Shown here: in pieces, positions 4,210-46,857 of the stretch
Position numbering within the stretch: the stretch's first letter is position 1
Layout of the letters: each line of letters starts with the position of its first letter
From: Sphingobium yanoikuyae
Lineage (GTDB): Bacteria; Pseudomonadota; Alphaproteobacteria; Sphingomonadales; Sphingomonadaceae
Reading direction: 5' to 3'
NCBI RefSeq assembly: GCF_034424525.1
Contig: NZ_CP139979.1
Coordinates: 3,435,001-3,499,000 of the forward strand
Length of the DNA stretch: 64,000 nucleotides
The notes under the pieces: model-generated
Told to the model about the DNA's origin: nothing
The model's input: the letters and a program-made list of their open reading frames with translations, nothing else
The model's database searches: none
Position numbers and translations under genes: made by a program

Positions 4210-5297
4210 TGGACCGCCCGCGATCCTTCGGGAAGGGCGCGGACCGCAAGCGAGGCGGGCCAGGCAACGCCCGGATCGATCCGGACATAGGCCATGCCGG
4301 GCAGGCCGGTCTTCACCTGGGCGATATGCTTGCGCAGCAGCGCCGGATCGATCCGGGCCTTGACCCGAAACATCATCTTCTCGCGCTCGCTCTGGGTTTC
4401 CACCGTCTTGGGCGTGAACTGGGCGACGTCGGCGACGAAGCTGATCCGCGCCGGGATCGGATAGTCGGGAATGGCATCGAGCACGATCCGCGCCTCGCTG
4501 CCGATGGCGACACGGCCGGCGGCGGTGGCGGGCAGGAAGAAGCTGATCGTCACGTCGGACAGGTCGACCAGGCTCAGCACCCGGCCACCGGCCGTCACCA
4601 CCTCGCCGGGCTGGGCGACGCGATACTGGACGCGGCCGTCGCGTGGCGCGCGCAGGCTGCTGTCGTTGATGTCCGCCTCGATCCGCTGGATGGTGGCGCG
4701 GCCGGCCTCCACGCGCGATCGCGATCCGATCACCTGATTGCGGGCATTGGTGATGGCGACCTCGGCCGAGGCGAGCTGGGCACGGGCCGCCTCCACGGCG
4801 GCGGCGGCGCCTTCGGTCTGGGCGGCGTCGTCATCGCGCTCCTGCACTGCGGTCGCACCTTCGCGGGCCAGGGTTTCGGACCGGGCAAGGCGCTTGCGCG
4901 AGGCGTTGAGCTCGGCGATGCGCTGGCGCACCACGGCCTGGGCCGCGGCCTTCTCGCTCTCGCGCTGGGCCACCTGGGTCTGGGCGACGAGGACGGCATT
5001 CTGCGCCTCGGCCAGTTGCGCGACGGCCTCGGTCCGCTGTGCGTCCAGCACGTCGACATCCATATGGGCGACGATCTCGCCGGCCTTCACCAGCTGCCCT
5101 TCATCCGCGACGATATCCTTGATCCGTCCGGCGGATTTGGAGGCGACGTCGATCTCGGTCGCTTCCAGCCGGCCATTGCCGCCGACAATGCCTTCGGGCA
5201 GGCCGGCCGGCTTCAGCAAAGTCCAGAGCAGGAAGGCAATGCCGGCCACCGCCGCCACGATCAGCCCCCTGACGATCCAGCGCTTGTTCATGCTCAT
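4206..5297 (-). CDS. HlyD-family membrane fusion (periplasmic adaptor) protein
   Basis: This 363-residue periplasmic adaptor has a single N-terminal membrane anchor at about residues 8-27. A barrel-sandwich (biotinyl-lipoyl-like) half-motif follows around residues 45-75. A long Ala/Glu/Gln/Arg-rich alpha-helical coiled coil at about 80-195 should form the hairpin that meets the outer membrane factor. The second half of the sandwich and a beta-barrel domain complete it. It resembles YhiI, whose gene neighbours the rbbA and yhhJ homologues in E. coli. The start at 5297 overlaps the outer membrane factor stop by 4 bases and has AGGGGGAA just upstream; a second ATG two codons later is possible. 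The role is to couple the ABC transporter to the outer membrane channel. Confidence 0.87.
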
Positions 5298-6799
5298 GGT
5301 TCCCCCTGGTTCCCGGACGGGGCGGCCGCGATGCCGCGATTGACCACAAAGCCGCCGCCCAGGGCGGCATAGAGGCTGACGATGCTGGAGAGTTCCCCCC
5401 GGCGAAGCTGGACCAGCGCCTGTTCCGCATCGAACAGGTCGCGCTGGGCATCGAGCACTTCGAGATAGGTGGAGCGGCCATTGTCGAACCGCAACTGGGC
5501 GAGGCGCGCCCGTTCCCGCTGGGCATCGACCAGTTGGCGCGTGGTGCCGATCTGCAGGGCGATCTGGCGCCGCCGGACCAGCGCGTCGGACACGTCGCGA
5601 AAGGCGGACTGGATCGTCTTTTCATAGGTAGCGACGGCCTCGTCCCGGCGCGCCTGCGCCACGTCCAGATTGCCCTTCAGCCGACCGGCGTTGAACAGGG
5701 GCAGACGGATCGTCGGCGAAAAGCTCCACACCTCGCTATTGCCGCCGAACAGGCCGTCGAGGTCCGGGCTGGTCGTGCCATAGGCGCCGGTCAGGCTGAT
5801 ATTGGGGAAGAAGGCGGCGCGGGCGGCACCGATGTTGGCATTGGCGGCGCGCAGCTGATGCTCGGCCGCGACGATGTCCGGCCGGTTGGTGAGCAGTTCG
5901 GACGGCAGGCCGGCGGGCACCTGATAATCGCCGCCCGGTCCGGCCAGCCGCAGCGATCCGGGCGCGATCTCCACCGGCTGGCCGACCAGCAGCGCCAGCG
6001 CGTTGCGATTGACCGCGCGGTCGAGGTTCAGCACATGCATGGTGGTGTCCGCCTGCGCCAGCAGCACCTGGGACTGGGCCAGGTCCAGCTTCGACCCAGA
6101 CCCCACCTCATAGCGGCGGCGCATGATGCGCAGCGTTTCCTGCCGGGTGGTGATCGACTGCTGGGTAAGGGCGGCGCGCTCCTCATATTCGCGCTCCAGC
6201 AGATAGCCGAGCGCCACCTGCGCGATCAGGTCGGTCGCGACCGCCCGGCGCGATTCCTCGGACGCCAGAAACTGTTCGCGGGCGGCCTCCTTCAGATTGC
6301 GCAGCCGGCCCCAGAAATCGATTTCCCAGCTGGCGCTCAGTTGGGCGGTGATCGATTTCACGTCGACGATCTGGTCGCCGATCACCGGCAGGCTGTAGAA
6401 GGCCTGACCGCGCGTGCCCGTCGCCACGGCATCGAGCTGGGGATAGAGCGAGGCACCCTCGATCCGCCAGGCGCCGCGCGCCTGCGCCACGCGGGCGGCG
6501 GCGATGCGAATGTCCCGATTATTGGCCAGCGCCTGGGCGACCAGCCTGCGCAATTCGGGATCGGGAAAAACCTGCTCCCAGTCGCGCCCGGCCAACGAAG
6601 CCCCGTCCGGCGTCGCTACGGCATAGCTGTCGGGCACCGGCAGGGATGGCTGGACATAATCGGGCGCAAAGGAACAACCGGTCAGGGAAAGAGCCAGAAG
6701 CATCGTCAAGGCCTCAGGGACAACCCTCCCCTTCGCGCCATGACCTATCGCAAAATCGGAATTGCCAAGCGACACCAAGCACCCCTTTTCGAGCAACAT
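5294..6799 (-). CDS. NodT/OprM-family outer membrane factor lipoprotein
   Basis: This 501-residue protein is the first gene of the efflux operon. A lipobox (LSLTGC) puts the modified cysteine at residue 42 with the start used here. The mature protein begins SFAPDYVQP and carries two outer membrane efflux protein repeats rich in amphipathic helix, as in OprM/TolC-type trimeric channels. The start is the ATG at 6799 with AGGGG about 4 bases upstream. This gives an unusually long stretch before the lipobox, and a GTG start nearer the hydrophobic segment (VVPEALTMLLALSLTGC) cannot be excluded. The protein should form the outer membrane exit duct for the ABC pump encoded by the three overlapping genes downstream. 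Confidence 0.88.
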   Translation of the reverse strand: MLLEKGCLVSLGNSDFAIGHGAKGRVVPEALTMLLALSLTGCSFAPDYVQPSLPVPDSYAVATPDGASLAGRDWEQVFPDPELRRLVAQALANNRDIRIAAARVAQARGAWRIEGASLYPQLDAVATGTRGQAFYSLPVIGDQIVDVKSITAQLSASWEIDFWGRLRNLKEAAREQFLASEESRRAVATDLIAQVALGYLLEREYEERAALTQQSITTRQETLRIMRRRYEVGSGSKLDLAQSQVLLAQADTTMHVLNLDRAVNRNALALLVGQPVEIAPGSLRLAGPGGDYQVPAGLPSELLTNRPDIVAAEHQLRAANANIGAARAAFFPNISLTGAYGTTSPDLDGLFGGNSEVWSFSPTIRLPLFNAGRLKGNLDVAQARRDEAVATYEKTIQSAFRDVSDALVRRRQIALQIGTTRQLVDAQRERARLAQLRFDNGRSTYLEVLDAQRDLFDAEQALVQLRRGELSSIVSLYAALGGGFVVNRGIAAAPSGNQGEP

Positions 6800-34065: not shown

Positions 34066-35007
34066 TCAGCCGGCGAGCTGCGTTTCCAGTTCGCCCAGCA
34101 CGCGATAGCAGTCGAACACCTTGGCGACCGAGCTGTTGGGCTCACGGCCCTCGCGGATCGCGCTGATGAACTCGCGGTCCTGCAATTCGATGCCATTGTT
34201 CGAGATGGCGACGCCGGCCAGGTCGATCGGCTCTTCCTTGCCGTTCACCAGATCGTCGTAGCGCGCGATATAGGTGTCGGTATCGCCGATATAGCGGAAG
34301 AAGGTGCCCAGCGGTCCGTCATTGTTGAAGCTCAGCGACAGGGTGCAGATGGCGCCGGTCTCGCTCTTCAATTGGATCGACATGTCCATGGCGATGCCCA
34401 GTTCCGGATGGATCGGCCCCTGCATCGCGTGAGCGGCGACGATCTTGCCCGCCTGATAGGCGAACAGGTCGACCGTGTGCGCGGCATGATGCCACAGAAG
34501 ATGGTCGGTCCACGACCGCGGCTCGCCCTTGGCATTGATATTCTTTCGGCGGAAGAAATAGGTCTGCACGTCCATCTGCTGGACGTTGAATTCGCCCGCC
34601 TGGATGCGGTTGTGGACGAACTGATGCGACGGGTTGAAGCGGCGGGTATGGCCGACCATGCAGACAAGGCCGGTTTCCTTCTGCTTCGCGAGCACCGCCT
34701 GCGCATCGGCCCAGCTGTCGGCGAGTGGGATTTCCACCTCGACATGCTTGCCCGCATTCATGCAGGCGATCGCCTGTTCCGCGTGCATCTGGGTCGGCGT
34801 ACACAGGATCACCGCATCGACATCGTCACGCGCCAGCGTCTCGTTGAGGTCGGTCGTCACATGGCCGATGCCATATTTCTCGGCGACCTTCTTCGTCGCC
34901 TCCAGTTCGCGGCCGATGATCGAGGTGACGGTGACGCCGTCGATATTCTTGAGGCCATCAAGATGCTTTTCGCCAAAGGCGCCGGCACCGGCGAGGGCAA
35001 TACGCAT
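34066..35007 (-). CDS. ligC: 4-carboxy-2-hydroxymuconate-6-semialdehyde dehydrogenase
   Basis: This is a 313-residue cytoplasmic NAD(P)-dependent oxidoreductase of the Gfo/Idh/MocA fold. It oxidises the hemiacetal form of 4-carboxy-2-hydroxymuconate-6-semialdehyde, the LigAB product, to 2-pyrone-4,6-dicarboxylate. The Rossmann motif is GAGAFGEKHLDGL at residues about 7-19, with CTPTQMHAEQAI and HVEVEIPLADSWADA following. The conserved SWTDHLLWHHAAHTVDLF segment lies in the catalytic domain. Sequence and position next to ligB match SYK-6 LigC. The start is the ATG at 35007 with GGAGAA 6 bases upstream; the longer frame to 35061 runs into a palindromic repeat. It is separated from ligB by that repeat although in the same operon. 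Confidence 0.93.
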   Translation of the reverse strand: MRIALAGAGAFGEKHLDGLKNIDGVTVTSIIGRELEATKKVAEKYGIGHVTTDLNETLARDDVDAVILCTPTQMHAEQAIACMNAGKHVEVEIPLADSWADAQAVLAKQKETGLVCMVGHTRRFNPSHQFVHNRIQAGEFNVQQMDVQTYFFRRKNINAKGEPRSWTDHLLWHHAAHTVDLFAYQAGKIVAAHAMQGPIHPELGIAMDMSIQLKSETGAICTLSLSFNNDGPLGTFFRYIGDTDTYIARYDDLVNGKEEPIDLAGVAISNNGIELQDREFISAIREGREPNSSVAKVFDCYRVLGELETQLAG

Positions 35008-35027
35008 GGAATTTTCTCCATCTAAAG

Positions 35028-35144
35028 CCCCTCCCTGGAAGGGAGGGTTGAATAGAGACACCTGTCTCTATTCAAGGGTGGGTGCCTCCGAAGGAGGCTC
35101 GCTACGCTCGCACCCACCCCCGGCCCCTCCCTAGAAGGGAGGGG
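35028..35144. repeat. Mosaic palindromic element between ligB and ligC
   Basis: Four hairpins stand in series: CCCTCCCT-GGA-AGGGAGGG (35029-35047), TTGAATAGAGACA-CC-TGTCTCTATTCAA (35048-35075, 13-bp arms), GGGTGGGTGC/GCACCCACCC (35076-35085 and 35110-35119) enclosing CCTCC-GAA-GGAGG, and CCCCTCCCT-AGA-AGGGAGGGG (35124-35144). The first and last are variants of the same palindrome. It fills nearly the whole gap inside the leftward lig operon. It resembles REP/BIME-type intergenic mosaics; mobility is not evident. Confidence 0.8.
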
Positions 35145-35166
35145 AGGCAGGAGTGCGAACCGAAAT

Positions 35167-36419
<1,253 letters not shown>

Positions 36420-36438
36420 CTCATCCTCTCTTGGCATC

Positions 36439-36478
36439 CATCCCCCGGCCCTTCCTTCCAACAAAGGACCGGGGGATG
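36439..36478. repeat. Hairpin between ligJ and ligA
   Basis: CATCCCCCGG (36439-36448) pairs with CCGGGGGATG (36469-36478), and the stem continues as CCTT/AAGG after one mismatch. It lies inside the leftward lig operon between the ligJ stop and the ligA start. There is no T-tract, so partial termination or mRNA processing and stability is more likely than full termination. Confidence 0.5.
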
Positions 36479-36516
36479 AACGCGCCCCTCCGCGGGGATA
36501 GGGTTACAGGCTGCGG

Positions 36517-37539
36517 TTACAGGCCGCGCGCCTTCAATTGCGCGTCGAGCCGGGGGAAGACCCGGCGGGCATTGCCCTCGAAGATCGCGGCACGCTCGCC
36601 CTCGCTGATGTCCAGCGCATCGACATAGCGCTTGGTATCGTCGAAATAATGACCGGTGGTGGGATCAATGCCGCGCACCGCGCCGACCATTTCCGACCCG
36701 AACAGGATATTCTTGTTGTCGATCACGTCGGCCAGCAGGTCGACGCCGGGCTGATGATAGACACAGGTGTCGAAGAAGATGTTGTTCATCAGATGGGTCG
36801 ACAGGTCGGGCTTCTTCAGCATGTCGGCCAGACCGCGATAACGGCCCCAATGATAGGGCACCGCGCCGCCACCATGCGGGATGATGAACTTGAGGGTCGG
36901 GAAATCCCTGAACAGGTCGCCTTCCAGCAACTGCATGAAGGCGATGGTGTCGGCCGCGATATAATAGCCGCCGGTCGCATGCATCGCCGGATTGCAGCTG
37001 CCCGACACATGGATCATCGCCGGCACGTCCAGCTCGACCATCTTCTCGTAGAAGGGATACCAGTAACGGTCGGTCAGCGGCGGATGCTGGAAATGACCGC
37101 CGCCCGGATCAGGATTGAGGTTGCAGCCGATGAAGCCCATGTCGACGCAGCGTTCCAGCTCGGCAATGCTGTTGGCCATGTCCGCCTTGGGCGACTGGGG
37201 CAGCATGCACACGCCGACGAAGGTTTCGGGGAACAGGCCGACGACGCGCGCGATCAGGTCGTTGCAGCGCATCGCCCATTCCTTCGCCACCGCCGCGTCG
37301 CCAACATGAGGGGCCATGGCCGAAGCGCGCGGCGAGAAGATGGTGAGGTCGGCGCCGCGTTCCTTGATCAGGCGCAACTGGTTCGCCTCGATCGTCTCGC
37401 GGATTTCGGCATCGCTGATGTCGGGATAGGCGGGGGCAGGCACGCCCGCCTTGAACGCCGCCTTCTGCTCCTCGCGCCAGGCGTCATGCCCCTTGGGCAG
37501 CACGGTATAATGGCCGTGGCAGTCGATAATCATGGTCAT
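36517..37539 (-). CDS. ligJ: 4-oxalomesaconate hydratase
   Basis: This 340-residue protein of the amidohydrolase superfamily hydrates 4-oxalomesaconate to 4-carboxy-4-hydroxy-2-oxoadipate, the LigK substrate. The N-terminal metal motif is IIDCHGHYTV (H8, H10). Other conserved segments are FSPRASAMAPHVGD, GFIGCNLNPDPGGGHF, MIHVSGSCNPAMH and FIIPHGGGAVPYHWGRYRG, all typical of LigJ. The start at 37539 overlaps the stop of the upstream dehydrogenase gene by 4 bases (ATGA); a second ATG two codons in is possible. It is the second gene of the leftward lig unit. Confidence 0.93.
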   Translation of the reverse strand: MTMIIDCHGHYTVLPKGHDAWREEQKAAFKAGVPAPAYPDISDAEIRETIEANQLRLIKERGADLTIFSPRASAMAPHVGDAAVAKEWAMRCNDLIARVVGLFPETFVGVCMLPQSPKADMANSIAELERCVDMGFIGCNLNPDPGGGHFQHPPLTDRYWYPFYEKMVELDVPAMIHVSGSCNPAMHATGGYYIAADTIAFMQLLEGDLFRDFPTLKFIIPHGGGAVPYHWGRYRGLADMLKKPDLSTHLMNNIFFDTCVYHQPGVDLLADVIDNKNILFGSEMVGAVRGIDPTTGHYFDDTKRYVDALDISEGERAAIFEGNARRVFPRLDAQLKARGL

Positions 37540-38432
37540 GCCGGGTCGGCCTTTCCTGTCTGTTCTGCTTTTGCTTGGATGATGCTGTCGATCTTGGCGC
37601 CCAGTCCTTCGGGCGGCGCCTTCAGGCCGAGCGTGCCGATCGCCTGCTGGCGCTCGACCGTGCCGCGCGTCATCGCGGAACCGGTGCCAAGGCCGTCGAG
37701 CGTCTTGACCACCTCCGCCATCTCGGCCGCGCGGCGCAGCCCGTGGACCATCATGCGGTCGAGATTATAGTCGGCGCGGATATCCCAGGGACGCGGCTTC
37801 TCGCTGGCGTCGAGCGATCCGATCACCTCGTCCAGCACACCCGCCGCATCGGCCGCCAGCATGCATTCGGCGGTCAGCGCCTCCAGCCCCTTGACCATCA
37901 CCGACCGGATCATCTTGATCGCCGACGCCCGACCGACGGCTTCGCCGACGACGCGGATATTGGTGAATCCCAGCCGGGCCAGCCCTGCCCGCGCGGCATC
38001 GGCATGGCCACCGCTGACCAGCAGCGGCACGTTCAGCCGGGCCGGATCGACCGGCGCCATGACGGCGACATCGACATAATGGCCACCGGCCGCCTCGATC
38101 GCGCGGGCTGCCGCCTGCTTGGTTTGCGGCGCGACGCTGTTGAGATCGCAATAGAGCGCGCCGGGCGCGATATGGGCGGCGGCGGCCTGCGCCACGGCGA
38201 GCGCCTGGTCGGCGGTGACGAGCGACAGGATGACGGTGACGGGCGTGACGGCATCGGCCAGCGTCGGCACGGCCCGGACGCCGGCCCTGGCACAGCGCGC
38301 CAGCATCGCATCGCGGGTGGCGCCGACATCCGTCTGGATATCATAGACGCGGGCCGCGTCGATCCAGTCCCCCGCCATCGCAAAGGTGGACCCTGCCTCG
38401 CCAAATCCGATCAGACCGATTTCCTGCTCCAT
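37536..38432 (-). CDS. NAD(P)-dependent beta-hydroxyacid-dehydrogenase-like protein (DUF1932)
   Basis: This 298-residue protein has an N-terminal Rossmann domain (IGLIGFGEAGSTFA, residues about 5-18) of the 6-phosphogluconate/3-hydroxyisobutyrate dehydrogenase superfamily and a C-terminal DUF1932 helical domain. The conserved lysine in RASAIKMIRSVMVKG and the DLNSVAP and APVDPARLNVPLLVSGG blocks match the superfamily. It is the first gene of the leftward lig unit: the ligR stop is 64 bases upstream, with a LigR-operator-like dyad between. It does not match a named step of the protocatechuate pathway. It may reduce or oxidise a side product or a related hydroxy acid. Confidence 0.8.
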   Translation of the reverse strand: MEQEIGLIGFGEAGSTFAMAGDWIDAARVYDIQTDVGATRDAMLARCARAGVRAVPTLADAVTPVTVILSLVTADQALAVAQAAAAHIAPGALYCDLNSVAPQTKQAAARAIEAAGGHYVDVAVMAPVDPARLNVPLLVSGGHADAARAGLARLGFTNIRVVGEAVGRASAIKMIRSVMVKGLEALTAECMLAADAAGVLDEVIGSLDASEKPRPWDIRADYNLDRMMVHGLRRAAEMAEVVKTLDGLGTGSAMTRGTVERQQAIGTLGLKAPPEGLGAKIDSIIQAKAEQTGKADPA

Positions 38433-38486
38433 GGCGGGTTGGATGACGGATCATGTCTGATGCCGCCAATCGAATCCGCTGGACCA

Positions 38487-38500
38487 GTATAAGATTTTAC
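38487..38500 (-). promoter_or_regulatory. Candidate LigR operator upstream of the DUF1932-ligJABC unit
   Basis: Read leftward, GTAAAATCTTATAC is a 14-bp imperfect dyad followed by TGGTCCAGCGGATTCGA. The same arrangement, GCAAAAATTTATGC then CTGGTTCCAGTTCGGATTTGA, precedes ligK. The dyads differ at positions 2 and 13 by a compensating change (T-A against C-G), as expected for a protein-binding palindrome. The ligR TAA stop codon lies inside this copy. It is 54 bases from the DUF1932 start. Confidence 0.6.
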
Positions 38501-39648
38501 GAATTCATATGTGCCGCAGCCTGATCGATCGCGGCCATGAACTGCTGCTGCAACCGGGTCGGGCGCCAGTCGGCCCGCGTCGTGAGGCCGATGGTCCGGC
38601 TGATCGCACCGGGTGCCGGGCCGATATCGATCAGCAGCCCCGCCTCCAGCTCCAGCGCCAGCTGATCGTGCGACAGCAAGGTCAGATACTCGCCGCCGAC
38701 CAGCAATTGCCGGATCGTCATCACCGATCCGCATTCGATCGGCACCGCCGGCAGATCCCCGCCGAGCGCCGCAAACATCGCCTGCCACAATTGCCGCAGC
38801 GGCGTTCCCTCCGGCGGCAATATCCAGGGATAGCAGCGCAGCGCATCGGCGTCCCAGCCCGCCGCCAGCGCATGGCCGCGCCGCGCCAGGATGGTCGGCT
38901 GATCCTCGAACAAGGGCCGTTGCGCCAGGTCCAGCGCCATGGCGGGATCGCGCAGCGCACCGACCATCATGTCGATTTCGCCATCGCGCAGCGGGCCGAC
39001 CAGTTCGGCATGCGATCCTTCATGCACGCTGATGTCGACCTGCGGAAAATCGGTGCGGAACCGGGCGATCGCATCGGGGATCAGGCGCGCGCGCGACAGC
39101 GGCATCGCGCCGACCAGGATGCGCCCGCCCTCCTGCCCGCGCAGGTCGGCCAGATCCTCCAGCCCCTGCCGCAATTCCGCCAGCGCCAGCCGCAGCCGCT
39201 GCGCCAACACCGTCCCGGCCCTGGTCAGCATCACGCCACGCCCGCGCCGGTCGACCAGCCTTTGCCCCAGCGCCAGCCCCAGATCGCCGACCGCGCGATG
39301 CAGCGAGGGTTCGGCCACGCCGGTCGCCACCGCCGCCGCCGCATAGCTGCCGCCGCGCGCCAGCGCGACGAAGGCGCGCACCTGCGCCGCCGTCACCCGG
39401 TTGCTGCCGATCAGCCGCAGCGCCGCATCAATCCGGGGCTTCAGCCGTTCCGCCGGTTCCAGCGCGACCATGCCGCCGGGCTGACGCGCGAACAGCGACA
39501 GGCCCAGTTGCGCCTCCAGCTTGGCGATCCCCTGGGTCACCGCCGGCTGGGTCAGATTGACCGCGCGCGCCGCCAGGCTGACGCTGCCAAGCTCCACCAC
39601 GGCCGCCATCGCGGCGAGATGACGGATATTGAACTGGTCGGGGTTCAT
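38497..39648 (-). CDS. ligR: LysR-type regulator of protocatechuate 4,5-cleavage genes with tandem HTH domains
   Basis: This 383-residue LysR-type regulator is about 80 residues longer than usual because it carries two winged-helix domains in tandem. The first is at about 8-66 ([22 protein letters not shown]). The second, divergent one is at about 86-150 ([22 protein letters not shown]). A normal effector-binding domain from about 175 follows. It sits between the two lig units, and matching operator-like dyads flank both ends of the gene. In SYK-6, LigR activates lig operons with protocatechuate or gallate; assignment here rests on position. The start is taken as the ATG at 39648; a GTG at 39657 is possible. 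Neither has a strong ribosome site. Confidence 0.82.
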
Positions 39649-39660
39649 GTCCAACACTTA

Positions 39661-39674
39661 GCAAAAATTTATGC
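39661..39674 (+). promoter_or_regulatory. Candidate LigR operator between ligR and ligK
   Basis: GCAAAAATTTATGC is a near-perfect 14-bp dyad, 12 bases upstream of the ligR ATG and 78 bases upstream of the ligK ATG. It is followed by the small palindrome CTGGTTCCAG (39676-39685). A T-N11-A LysR box is included (TAGCAAAAATTTA, 39659-39671). The second copy lies at the other end of ligR. The position suits both ligK activation and ligR autoregulation. Confidence 0.62.
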
Positions 39675-39752
39675 ACTGGTTCCAGTTCGGATTTGAGCAT
39701 CGCGCTGCACCTGTCCACATCGCTGTCAACTTATGCGCTAGGAGAAGGCTTG

Positions 39753-40419
39753 ATGTCCGGCATTGTCGTCCAGAATATCGAACGGGCGGACCTCGCCGTC
39801 ATCGATGGCCTCGCCAAGGCGGGCGTCGCCACCGTCCACGAAGCCCAGGGCCGCAAGGGCCTGCTCGCCCCCTATATGCGCCCCATCTATCCGGGCGCCC
39901 GCATCGCCGGCAGCGCGGTGACGATCTCCACCCCGCCGGGCGACAACTGGATGGTCCATGTCGCGATCGAACAGCTGAAGGAAGGCGACATATTGCTGCT
40001 CGCCCCGACCAGCCCCTGCACCGACGGCTATTTCGGCGACCTGCTCGCCACCTCTGCCCAGGCACGCGGCTGCCGTGGCCTCATCATCGACGCGGGCGTC
40101 CGCGACGTGCGCGACCTCAAGCAGATGAACTTCCCGGTCTGGTCCAAGGCGGTCCATGCCCAGGGCACGATCAAGGGCACGCTGGGATCGGTCAATATCC
40201 CGGTCGTGTGCGCCAATGCGCTGGTCAATCCGGGCGACGTGATCATCGCCGACGATGATGGCGTGTGCATCGTGCCGCGCGCCGACGCCGCCGCCGTGCT
40301 GGAAAAGGCGCAGGCCCGCGAGGCCGCCGAGGAAGCCAAGCGCGTCCGCCTGGCCGCCGGGGAACTGGGCCTCGACATCTACAATATGCGCCCGCGCCTG
40401 CAGGAAATGGGCCTCAAAT

Positions 40420-40427
<8 letters not shown>
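39753..40427 (+). CDS. ligK: 4-carboxy-4-hydroxy-2-oxoadipate aldolase
   Basis: This 224-residue class II (metal-dependent) aldolase of the RraA-like fold splits 4-carboxy-4-hydroxy-2-oxoadipate into pyruvate and oxaloacetate, the last step of the pathway. Typical segments are [53 protein letters not shown] and the metal/substrate motif [12 protein letters not shown]. The start is the ATG at 39753 (MSGIVVQNI) with GGAGAAGG upstream; the longer frame from 39693 runs through the promoter region. It is the first gene of the rightward lig unit and overlaps the next start by 8 bases. Confidence 0.93.
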
Positions 40428-42368
<1,941 letters not shown>

Positions 42369-42524: not shown

Positions 42525-44594
42525 ATGAAGAAGTTCATCGCATTGAGCGGCGCGGCCCTGATCGCGCTGTGCCATGGCACTGCCTGGTCGGCAGAGGCGG
42601 CCGCTGCGGACGCCCCCCGCACTGACGAAGACAGCATCGTCGTCACCGCCGCGACCACCGGGTCCAAGACCGATACGGCGCTGGTCGAACTGCCCCAGCC
42701 GATCAAGGTCATCACGTCCGAACAATATCTGTCGCAGGGCGCGATCAGCATCAGCGACACGGTGAAATATGCCGCCGGCGTGCTGGCCAACCCCTATGGC
42801 CGCGATACCCGCGTCGATGGCTTCAACGTCCGTGGCCTGGACGCGCTGCAGTTCCGCGACGGCATGCGCGACATCTTCAGCTATTATGCGTCGATTACGT
42901 CCGACCCCTATAATTTCTCGCGCGTGGAAATCCTGCGCGGCCCGGCATCGGTGCTGTTCGGCCAGGGGTCGATCGGCGGCCTGGTCAACCTGGTCAGCAA
43001 GACGCCCGATTTCACCACGCGCGGCGAACTCAACCTCGTCTATGGCAGCTATGACCGCAAGGAGGCGATGGGCGACGTCAATGTCGCGCTGGCCGACAAT
43101 CTGGCAGTGCGCTTCGTCGGCCGCGTCCGCGACGCCGACACCTATGTCGACCATGTCCCCGACGACCGCGTGATGTTCGCGCCCTCGATCCGCTGGCAGC
43201 CGACGCCGGATACCGACATCGTGCTGACCGGCCTGTATCAGGAGGATGATACCGGCTCGACGTCGCAGTTCCTGCCGATCGTCGGCACCTTCATGCCCAA
43301 CAATGTCGCGGGCGAGCAGCTCGATCGCTACACCTTCGTCGGCAAGGCCGGCTGGGATCGCTATGATGGCCGGTCGCTGCAGGGTGGCGGCTCGATCACC
43401 CACCGCTTCTCCGACAATGTGAAGCTGAGCCTCAAGGCGCGCTATATCGACAGCGACCTCGAATATAACACCCATTATGCCGACAGCTATACCAACCCGC
43501 AGGATCCCTTCTCGGTCTATGGCACCGACGGGCGCACCATCGCGCTGACAGCCGACGCCAGCGACGCGCGGATGAACGTCTTTTCGACCGACAACAACGT
43601 CCAGTTCAATTTCAACACCGGCGCCAATATCGAGCACAAGCTGCTGGTAGGCATCGACTATAGCTGGAACAAGGTGTCCAAGCGTTATGCCGGCGGCTAT
43701 GAACTGGTCGACCTTTACGACATCGATTATGATGCGCTGGCGACCTATGATCCGACTGGCCCCTTCACCAGCGACAGCCAGAAGCAGTTGGGCGTCTATG
43801 TCCAGGACCAGATCCGCTTCTATGACCGGGTATCGGTCGTGCTGGGCGCCCGCCGCGATCGCGTGACCGGCTCTTCGGGCCAGAAGGACAACGCCACCAC
43901 CTTCCGCGCCGGCATCATCGGCGAAATCGGTGCCGGCATCTCGCCCTTCTTCAGCTACACCGAAAGCTTCCTGCCGGTCGCCGGCCGGATCGACAATGGC
44001 GATGGCAGCTATGGCGATGCCTACAAGCCGCAGACCGGCACCCAATATGAAGCCGGCGTGAAGTGGCAGCCCGCCCCCAGCACCCTGGTCACCGCCACCG
44101 TGTTCAAGATCAAGGAGCGCAACCGCGTCCTCTATCTCGCAGCTGGCGGCACCGAACAGTCGGGCGTGCTCAACACCAAGGGCTTCGAGATCGAGGCGAG
44201 CCACACCCTGCCCGGCAATTTCGAACTGCTGGCCAATTATGGCTATTCGAAGCTGAAGTCGGAAACCAACACCAGCCTCGACTATATGCCACGCCACACC
44301 GCGTCGCTCTGGTCCACCAAGACCTTCGGCCTGGCCGACGAGGCGCAGCTGCGCCTGGGCGGCGGCGTTGTCTATAGCGGCAAGAGCGTGTCGACCAGCG
44401 CGATCTGGTCGATCGTCACGCCGTCGCGCACCACCGTCGATGCGCTGGCGGAAATCACCTGGCAGGACTGGCGCTTCGCGCTCAATGCGACCAACCTGCT
44501 CAACAAGAAATTCTACGCGTCCTGTCTGGCGCGTGGCGACTGCTTCATGGGCGCGCCGCGCAACGTCATGGGCACGGTCGGCTTCCGTTTCTGA
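42525..44594 (+). CDS. TonB-dependent siderophore-type receptor
   Basis: This 689-residue outer membrane receptor has a signal peptide (MKKFIALSGAALIALCHGTAWS/AEA) and a TonB-box region DSIVVTAATTGSKTDTALVELPQPIKVIT. The plug contains GRDTRVDGFNVRGLDALQFRDG and VEILRGPASVLFGQGSIGGLVNLVSKTP, the form typical of ferric-siderophore receptors. The barrel ends GTVGFRF. Two cysteines near the C-terminus (SCLARGDCF) form the usual extracellular-loop pair. It is followed 11 bases later by a DUF4198 gene, a common pairing. The substrate is probably an iron-siderophore or another metal chelate. Confidence 0.9.
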   Translation: MKKFIALSGAALIALCHGTAWSAEAAAADAPRTDEDSIVVTAATTGSKTDTALVELPQPIKVITSEQYLSQGAISISDTVKYAAGVLANPYGRDTRVDGFNVRGLDALQFRDGMRDIFSYYASITSDPYNFSRVEILRGPASVLFGQGSIGGLVNLVSKTPDFTTRGELNLVYGSYDRKEAMGDVNVALADNLAVRFVGRVRDADTYVDHVPDDRVMFAPSIRWQPTPDTDIVLTGLYQEDDTGSTSQFLPIVGTFMPNNVAGEQLDRYTFVGKAGWDRYDGRSLQGGGSITHRFSDNVKLSLKARYIDSDLEYNTHYADSYTNPQDPFSVYGTDGRTIALTADASDARMNVFSTDNNVQFNFNTGANIEHKLLVGIDYSWNKVSKRYAGGYELVDLYDIDYDALATYDPTGPFTSDSQKQLGVYVQDQIRFYDRVSVVLGARRDRVTGSSGQKDNATTFRAGIIGEIGAGISPFFSYTESFLPVAGRIDNGDGSYGDAYKPQTGTQYEAGVKWQPAPSTLVTATVFKIKERNRVLYLAAGGTEQSGVLNTKGFEIEASHTLPGNFELLANYGYSKLKSETNTSLDYMPRHTASLWSTKTFGLADEAQLRLGGGVVYSGKSVSTSAIWSIVTPSRTTVDALAEITWQDWRFALNATNLLNKKFYASCLARGDCFMGAPRNVMGTVGFRF

Positions 44595-45276: not shown

Positions 45277-46857
45277 TCATGCGGCGAGCGCCGCCAGATC
45301 CGCGTCCAGCGCGTCGAGCGCCGCATCGGTGAACTGCGACGGGGCAAAGGGCTGGATCGCGCGGAGCGTCATGCCCCTTGCCATCGCAATGCGCTGGTCA
45401 TCCGCCACGCCGGGAAAATAGCGATCGAGCAGGCTGCGCGTCTGCGGATCGGCCAGCAGCACGCCGATCTTCGTGTGCGTGGTCGACAGCATTTCGTCCT
45501 GTGGTTCCACCTGCGCTTGCGGCGTCTGCCCTGCAACGGGGAAAGCGCCCGCCTCACCCCGATCGGCCAATGCGGTGGTCGATGGCGTCAGTATCAGGTG
45601 CAGGTCGGCCAGCCCGCGAATGATGAAGCTCGGCTCGAAATGCAGGTCGCGGGCACCGGGCGGGCCATGGCGGGTCGGGTCGAGTTCGATCGCGCTGCTA
45701 TGCTCCAGAAACTTCTCCAGGATGATCCGCACCTCGACACGGGCGAGCGGCGCGCCGGCGCAGACATGCTTGCCCCGGCCGAAGGCGACATGCTCGCGGA
45801 TGCGGGGGCGATCCAGTTGCAACTCTGCCGGCGCGTCCCAGCGCGCAGGATCGCGATTGGCCGCCGCCAGTGCCAGCAATATGCAGGTACCCGCCGGCAC
45901 CAGCCGATCGCCGATCCGGGTATCGCGCCGCGCGACCCGCGCCGTCTGCTTGCTCGATCCCTCGATCCGCAGCACTTCCTCGATCAAGGCCGGGATCAGC
46001 GCCGGGTCGGCGCGCAATTGGTCCTGTAGCCCCGGCTGATCGACAATATGGCGCATGGCGTTGCCCAGCAGCTTGGCGCTGGTGTCCTGCCCGGCGCCGA
46101 ACAGGAAGGTGGCGAGATTGACGATCTCCGCCACGCTGGGCGTGGTCCCGTCGGCATATTTGGCCAGCGCCAGCTCGGTCAATATATCCTCGCGCGGATG
46201 ACGCCGCCGATCCTCGACATAGGCGGCGAAATAGGAACCCATGACGATCAGCGGATGCCCCTCCCCCGCATAGTCATTGTCCGCCGCGTCCAGGCTGCCG
46301 GGCGGCGGCGCCGCATCGATCACATCCATGAAGCGCTGGCGATCCTCCGCCGGCACGCCCAGCAGATCGGCGATCACCAACGTGACGAAGGGCGTGGCGA
46401 TGTCCCGGATCAGTTCGGTCCGCCCCCGCGCCACCGCCTGGCGCACCAGATGGTCCGAATAGTCCGATATGAAGCGCTCGTTCGCCTTGAGGCGGGACGG
46501 GGTGAACAGCCGGTTGACCAGCCCGCGCAGCATTGTGTGGGGCATGTCGTCCAGCCCGACCAGCATCGTGCCGCCGGGAAAATCGGGCCGATGCGCTTCA
46601 AGCTGCGCGCTGATGTCGCTGCCTTGCGGGTCAAAGGGCAAGGGCGCCGCGGCCCCCTGCAGCGCGTTGACGGCGGAAAAATCCTGGGCATTGGCGAGGA
46701 CTTCGAGCGTTTCGTCAAAGCCCGTGACGATCAGATAGTCCCGTCCCGGCGGCTGATAGACCGGGCCATGTGCCCGGACCGCCTCGAAAAAGGCATAGGG
46801 ATCCTGCAATATGCCGCGATCGGTAAAATAATCGCGCGCCTCCAGTGCCACCATCAT
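45277..46857 (-). CDS. Cytochrome P450 with extra C-terminal domain
   Basis: This 526-residue soluble bacterial P450 has the I-helix motif FGAGQDTSAKL near residue 255, an ExxR motif (EEVLR) near 300 and the heme loop FGRGKHVCAGAPLA with ligand C366. The P450 fold ends near residue 425 (LADLHLILTPS). About 100 more residues follow: a Pro/Gln-rich linker and a compact helical segment from about 460 (TKIGVLLADPQTRSLL ... ARGMTLRAIQPFAPSQFT), unusual for this class, which normally has about 400 residues. The start has GGGAGAGAG directly upstream; tandem ATGs make it ambiguous by one codon. It lies after the valine genes but has its own upstream dyad. The substrate is unknown. Confidence 0.88.
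   Translation of the reverse strand: MMVALEARDYFTDRGILQDPYAFFEAVRAHGPVYQPPGRDYLIVTGFDETLEVLANAQDFSAVNALQGAAAPLPFDPQGSDISAQLEAHRPDFPGGTMLVGLDDMPHTMLRGLVNRLFTPSRLKANERFISDYSDHLVRQAVARGRTELIRDIATPFVTLVIADLLGVPAEDRQRFMDVIDAAPPPGSLDAADNDYAGEGHPLIVMGSYFAAYVEDRRRHPREDILTELALAKYADGTTPSVAEIVNLATFLFGAGQDTSAKLLGNAMRHIVDQPGLQDQLRADPALIPALIEEVLRIEGSSKQTARVARRDTRIGDRLVPAGTCILLALAAANRDPARWDAPAELQLDRPRIREHVAFGRGKHVCAGAPLARVEVRIILEKFLEHSSAIELDPTRHGPPGARDLHFEPSFIIRGLADLHLILTPSTTALADRGEAGAFPVAGQTPQAQVEPQDEMLSTTHTKIGVLLADPQTRSLLDRYFPGVADDQRIAMARGMTLRAIQPFAPSQFTDAALDALDADLAALAA

Follow-up and report, generated by a model that had tools for sequence, protein, structure and literature searches.

The window analyzed here, a 64,000-nucleotide stretch of the Sphingobium yanoikuyae genome, contains ligR (38497..39648, minus strand) between two groups of genes, ligK-ligU-ligI on the plus strand and DUF1932-ligJ-LigA-like ORF-ligB-ligC on the minus strand, which is the neighborhood expected of LigR. 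The protein is a LysR-type regulator in which both the N-terminal HTH_1 domain (PF00126) and the C-terminal substrate-binding domain (PF03466) exceed their gathering scores, and its closest named relative, at 97%, is that of Sphingobium scionense. Its best NCBIfam model is TF_pcaQ with 211 bits, below the cut-off of 303.8, so this LigR is not classed as PcaQ. On the ligK side, ligK (39753..40427), the first gene of its group, and ligU (40420-41484), encoding 4-oxalomesaconate tautomerase, are matched above cut-off by TIGR02798 and NF033377, respectively, and are followed by the amidohydrolase gene ligI (41481-42368; PF04909). The minus-strand operon starts with a DUF1932 / 6PGDH-like gene (37536..38432; PF09130 and PF03446), and its remainder spans 34066..37539 with ligJ (36517-37539), a LigA-like ORF recognized by translation only (about 36015-36419), ligB (35167-36015; NF009903 above cut-off) and ligC (34066-35061). 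The names ligJ, ligC and ligI are based on broad Pfam families together with position. By sequence, the solved chains closest to the DUF1932 protein (4ezb, 3qsg) are 6PGDH-like with no named reaction, and DUF1932 was absent among the matches listed by a literature search on DUF1932 and protocatechuate. Downstream of ligI we also noted by eye a TonB-dependent receptor-like ORF (42525-44594) and, on the other strand, a cytochrome P450-like ORF (45277-46857).

LigR has been studied in two related organisms. In Sphingobium lignivorans SYK-6 it is described as a LysR-type activator that binds at -48 to -80 with protocatechuate and gallate as effectors (PMC12710314) and that regulates ligJABC, ligKUI and ligR itself (PMC6888825, which names the same effectors); the sites upstream of ligK and ligJ are attributed to Kamimura et al. 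2010, as cited in both of these papers. In Novosphingobium aromaticivorans, two LigR sites reached significance in DAP-seq, one upstream of ligK and one upstream of SARO_RS14280. EMSA and footprinting likewise showed binding ahead of ligK and of the gene that precedes ligJ; the footprints cover about 30 bp, at -51 to -83 and at -56 to -85, and the region just upstream of ligJ is not bound (PMC12710314). The same source reports that deletion of ligR lowers expression of the flanking genes about 10- to 20-fold, and gives the shared sequence of the site, a consensus of four sites, as TT-N-GC-N6-TTAT. The central proposal of a preliminary description of this DNA, that matching blocks at both ends of ligR are LigR operators and place the DUF1932 gene in the LigR regulon, is thus already in print for this relative.

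Both blocks are present exactly as first described. The left copy, GTAAAATCTTATAC at 38500-38487 on the minus strand, is followed by TGGTCCAGCGGATTCGA, and the right copy, GCAAAAATTTATGC at 39661-39674 on the plus strand, is followed by ACTGGTTCCAG and then TTCGGATTTGA; the two 14-mers agree at 10 of 14 positions. The ligR start codon (ATG at 39648) lies 10 nt from the putative right operator, and the stop codon (TAA, 38499-38497) falls within the left one, as had been pointed out. We place the operator core on the ligK side at 39658..39672 on the plus strand (TTAGCAAAAATTTAT), where it matches the published TT-N-GC-N6-TTAT (PMC12710314) exactly. The core on the DUF1932 side, at 38489..38503 on the minus strand (TTCGTAAAATCTTAT), overlaps the ligR stop codon and differs from that pattern by one base, GT in place of GC, because the stop codon starts there; conservation and a profile match support it, and by its position and conservation we class it as LigR-operator-like.

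The resemblance of the two 14-mers proves nothing by itself and was set aside as evidence, since a 10-of-14 match appeared in 130 of 200 dinucleotide shuffles of both flanks, with a mean of 2.7 such pairs against the three observed. The pattern class GYAAAANNTTATRC is matched exactly at two places in the 5.53-Mb genome, namely the two copies at this locus. When up to one mismatch is allowed, its 17 matches compare with 26 for the reversed control, and beyond the two exact matches the 14-mer is not enriched. A profile of 42 positions was built from 122 sites at other loci (LigR identity at least 50%, site score at least 12), with the window's own locus left out. Among the 150 of 411 first-look candidates that were scored, this profile yielded two genome matches at E ≤ 10 (E-values 6e-5 and 1e-4), and these are exactly the two boxes.

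To follow the boxes across sphingomonads, a first collection of 21 loci with LigR-like genes, of which two were distant and lacked usable flanks, was extended by a survey that found 113 LigR-like places in 90 of 397 genomes; 90 loci covering 91 places were taken, and the 22 places left out were mostly lower-scoring. The 109 loci with a LigR-like gene provided 91 ligR-ligK flanks and 92 ligR-DUF1932 flanks, each reduced by similarity to 80; these loci are related, and counts over them are not independent. One-site-per-sequence motif finding arrived at a common box for the two flank sets, reading TTAGCAAAA-n-CTTAT ahead of ligK and TTCGTAAAA-n-CTTAT ahead of DUF1932, with T at position 1 and A at position 13 in 97-98%, and the 122 profile sites align without gaps over all 42 columns. 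The boxes are kept in place upstream of ligK and of DUF1932 across the family. The distance counts given below use the sites scoring at least 9 (79 on the ligK side and 76 on the DUF1932 side of 80 each), which excludes one ligK-side and four DUF1932-side sites. Many sphingomonad genomes also have a second group of LigR-like proteins with 46-49% identity to LigR, and some lig loci with such a protein (e.g. L104, L107, L108 and L112) have a DUF1932-side box more like TTCAGGAAATCGAATAG.

Among 61 genomes of the genus, for each of which 106 candidates were scored under stricter filters, the profile identified 42 outward-facing box pairs in 39 genomes, and 39 of these pairs have a spacing of 1.15-1.25 kb. 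A box match and a LigR-like protein occurred together in 44 genomes and were both absent in 15, leaving one genome with only the protein (G426, 46% identity) and one with only a box match (G429, E 0.38); because some of the loci used to train the profile come from the genomes searched, this co-occurrence is support and not an independent test. Eight of the 92 listed matches were unpaired. Those in G273 and G419 are at contig ends, a separate scan showed a weaker second box for those in G408, G430 and G432, and the match in G429 (locus L154), alongside which no lig gene was found, is probably due to chance. The one in G414 (L152) is an extra box: this locus has about 1.4 kb between ligR and ligK (region 4800-6250), with a second LigR-type box (6144-6185) before ligK, and was left out of the spacing argument. 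The frames in the gap, judged by eye, resemble an IclR-type regulator and a small SnoaL-like protein. Two ligR loci, each accompanied by a box pair, are present in three genomes (G400 on C55 and C108, G437 on C2 and C5, G449 on C4 and C1). The G400:C108 copy may be frame-shifted, as its LigR match is split into two pieces (1-187 and 185-383).

Downstream of each box, the aligned flanks contain further conserved positions from which candidate promoters can be read. An ATT[T/G]G element lies 18 nt beyond TTAT and is likely the -35 element; the pattern [AC]TT[TGA]G occurs at this exact offset in 69/80 DUF1932-side flanks and in 37/80 ligK-side flanks, with nine more on the ligK side shifted one base later. 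It is missing from the scanned stretch in 31/80 flanks on the ligK side and 5/80 on the DUF1932 side, making the ligK side less uniform. For ligK, the predicted -35 is TTTGAG (39692..39697, plus strand), 19 nt after the operator core, where the conserved ATTTG begins at 39691 (aligned positions 33-37), and the predicted -10 is CACATC (39716..39721, plus strand), which would put +1 near 39728, ahead of a Shine-Dalgarno sequence AGGAG at 39740..39744. For the DUF1932-ligJABC operon, the predicted -35 is TTGGCG (38464..38469, minus strand; aligned positions 34-39) and the predicted -10 is CATCCA (38440..38445, minus strand). Both proposed -10 elements carry CA at aligned positions 58-59, a dinucleotide that is enriched on both sides; the signal is weak and would correspond to -12/-11. 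The conserved -35 and -10 registers would fit a placement of the operators about 50-85 bp upstream of the putative transcription starts of ligK and of the ligJ operon.

The two promoters differ in what follows. A CA at positions 58-59 implies a transcription start near position 70-71, which is where the DUF1932 start codon lies. In the window the DUF1932 ATG is 71 nt from the operator, with no Shine-Dalgarno sequence seen before it, and all 76 scored sites have an in-frame DUF1932 start 69-73 nt from the initial T of the box (ATG in 70). The ligK start falls at this distance in 2/79. Any other 5-nt window on the DUF1932 side contains a start at no more than 17 of the 76 sites (median 3); the spacing is kept in 33/33 LigR clusters at 70% identity. 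Starts of ligK are a median of 93 nt from the box (10th-90th percentile 87-104), about 15-35 nt beyond the DUF1932 register. Shine-Dalgarno-like sequences precede the start in 79/80 ligK, 61/74 ligJ and 30/79 ligU cases, and in 9/74 for DUF1932. From the spacing, the absence of a Shine-Dalgarno sequence, the weak CA and the published footprint positions, we infer, with less certainty than we attach to activation by LigR, that the DUF1932-ligJABC message is leaderless, its start codon coinciding with the transcription start. Leaderless messages are not rare in Alphaproteobacteria, with 375 in Caulobacter (PMC4117421) and 119 of 2,675 pairs of transcription start site and gene in Zymomonas (PMC7566282), which makes the prediction plausible.

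The ligR start shows a similarly fixed relation to the box on its own side. In 75/79 sites, ligR has an in-frame start codon 9-13 nt from the initial T of the box on the ligK side; a Shine-Dalgarno-like sequence is present in 6 of the 77 that have a start in range. If +1 is the ligR ATG, the TAA at -12 to -10 on the ligR strand is the complement of the TTA of the box, and this start spacing suggests TAAGTG (39655..39660, minus strand), overlapping the left arm of the operator, as a candidate -10. The ligR message is thus probably also leaderless, with its -10 inside the right operator, where it would be covered by bound LigR. In N. aromaticivorans the transcription start of ligR could not be mapped (PMC12710314).

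Alternatively, the DUF1932 and ligR messages could have ordinary leaders and be translated from starts that need no Shine-Dalgarno sequence. Such initiation is common in some Alphaproteobacteria, Caulobacter having a Shine-Dalgarno sequence at 24.6% of initiation sites (PMC4117421), and the fixed spacing could partly reflect shared ancestry. However, a start well upstream would bring the -10 and -35 elements out of the register of the ligK side, where a predicted leader of about 15-35 nt with a Shine-Dalgarno sequence follows, and the DUF1932 distance is fixed in 33/33 LigR clusters; we consider ordinary leaders unlikely, while giving them appreciable weight. A bolder reading, which we consider somewhat more likely than not, takes the lig switch as a leader-free module, in which the message of a LysR-activated ring-cleavage operon would start at its first codon and a leaderless ligR promoter would have its -10 in the operator of the divergent operon, with the boxes abutting both ends of ligR and the left one supplying the ligR stop codon in several registers. 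The leaderless reading of the DUF1932-ligJABC and ligR messages, which we infer from the aligned flanks, is what is new here. The word "leaderless" is absent from the main text of PMC12710314, and a search of openly available papers found none linking leaderless messages to ligJ or to transcription start sites in Novosphingobium.

As to the operator itself, the preliminary description had drawn it as a composite, with a 14-mer dyad kept by a compensating change at positions 2/13, a shared CTGG-CCAG palindrome and a shared CGGATTYGA, which LigR would recognize as one block. All three parts do occur at both ends of this ligR and in the near-identical locus L009, but they do not hold up across the family. 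Positions 2/13 show no clear covariation: complementary pairs number 51/79 on the ligK side (47.7 expected under independence) and 21/76 on the DUF1932 side (29.3 expected). The strongest dyad on the ligK side, ATTAG-N6-CTTAT, is centered 3 nt away from the proposed one (1.63 versus 1.35) and, like the sites of PcaQ-type LysR regulators, for which a T-N12-A box is cited (PMC12609908), fits T-N12-A, although LigR differs from PcaQ in its target pathway. The DUF1932 side gives a weaker dyad result: three other centers score above the proposed one, with 3.5 the highest (1.27), 6.5 next (1.07) and the proposed 9.5 at 0.85. The ligR stop codon (27 TAA, 3 TAG) begins exactly at 14-mer position 2 in 30/76 scored DUF1932-side sites; in the 46 others, where it lies elsewhere, the base is C (27 sites), G (12), T (6) or A (1). 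The T at position 2 of the left copy is there because the stop codon begins at that base, hence it is not evidence for a dyad. CTGG-CCAG is found in 1/80 deduplicated flanks on each side, both being the window's own, and among the near-identical loci removed as duplicates it is present in L009 on both sides and in L023 on the ligK side only; we therefore rejected it as a conserved element. The two copies of CGGATTYGA (CGGATTCGA on the left, CGGATTTGA on the right) differ by 5 nt in their distance from the box. In register, GATTTG on the right faces GATTGG on the left, so that the apparent shared block is a misaligned match and the conserved element is the ATTTG (right) or ATTGG (left) 18 nt after TTAT. 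We regard recognition of the composite as one block as very improbable; the part of the proposal that stands is that both blocks resemble LigR operators, being conserved in place and having equivalents that are bound in N. aromaticivorans.

Slightly less credible again is that another regulator, such as the LigR-like paralogue with 46-49% identity that several genomes carry, binds the boxes, given that G426, which has only the paralogue, has no box match at E ≤ 0.5, and that the next match to LigR in the S. yanoikuyae genome scores 74 bits versus 814.

The remaining question is to which gene the left box belongs. The ligR stop codon begins within the box core in 45/76 scored sites, in six registers, and 3-4 nt before the core in 15 more, and its position varies from -70 to +72 while the distance from the box to the DUF1932 start is fixed. 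In two genomes of the genus (loci L150 and L151), a ligB-like gene (L150:4554-5387 and L151:916-1749, both plus strand) with 40-41% identity to LigB, opposite in direction to ligR, lies between ligR and a DUF1932-type gene, and the box is 70 nt from the DUF1932-type start and about 1.4 kb from the end of ligR; the L151 contig ends within the DUF1932-type gene, which has no tblastn match and was recognized by its translated start. We therefore rejected the idea that the left box is a ligR 3'-end element, and these comparisons indicate that it belongs to the DUF1932 promoter, merely sharing bases with the end of ligR. That it is instead a terminator or processing site of ligR, as the enclosed stop codon and the 45/76 overlaps might suggest, is the least probable reading of all, against the box that stays with the displaced start in L150 and L151, the fixed distance to DUF1932 beside a shifting ligR stop, and the LigR footprint on the equivalent site in N. 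aromaticivorans (PMC12710314).

Both blocks are very probably LigR operators, and the DUF1932 gene very probably belongs to the LigR regulon, as was first suggested: the blocks are conserved in place, and LigR binds both equivalent sites in N. aromaticivorans (PMC12710314). The locus resembles that of N. aromaticivorans in the regulator, in the equivalent two sites at the ends of ligR with a TT-N-GC-N6-TTAT box, in the target operons, with an NAD(P)-dependent oxidoreductase gene ahead of ligJ, and in a similar promoter distance, and differs from the published consensus in the GT of the left copy. SYK-6, as described in the sources cited above, has its site upstream of ligJ, in contrast to the DUF1932 gene here. 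We are highly confident that LigR at the two boxes activates ligK-ligU-ligI and DUF1932-ligJ-ligA-ligB-ligC, a claim that for this locus draws on homology, site conservation and placement, binding and activation having been seen in N. aromaticivorans. In the proposed mechanism, each end of ligR would carry one LysR-type box, TT[A/C]G[C/T]-N6-TTAT, located about 55-70 bp ahead of a promoter that faces outward, and bound LigR, likely with protocatechuate or gallate as the effector (both known from SYK-6), would activate ligK-ligU-ligI rightward and DUF1932-ligJ-ligA-ligB-ligC leftward. The left box would be part of the DUF1932 promoter, its overlap with the end of ligR being incidental, and the ligJABC message would be leaderless, with the DUF1932 start codon at the transcription start. 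With ligR probably leaderless as well and its -10 in the right box, bound LigR would also hold down its own synthesis.

These results offer a proposed promoter map for the central protocatechuate 4,5-cleavage operons across Sphingomonadaceae, which are used in converting lignin aromatics, and they support the conserved and unexplained DUF1932 dehydrogenase as a LigR target beyond one species. They also illustrate that an apparent compensating change in a dyad can stem from an overlapping stop codon. The leader-free module, if true, would also provide the ligR transcription start that escaped mapping in N. aromaticivorans, and leaderless DUF1932-ligJABC and ligR messages, if true, would matter for rebuilding these operons with standard ribosome-binding sites.
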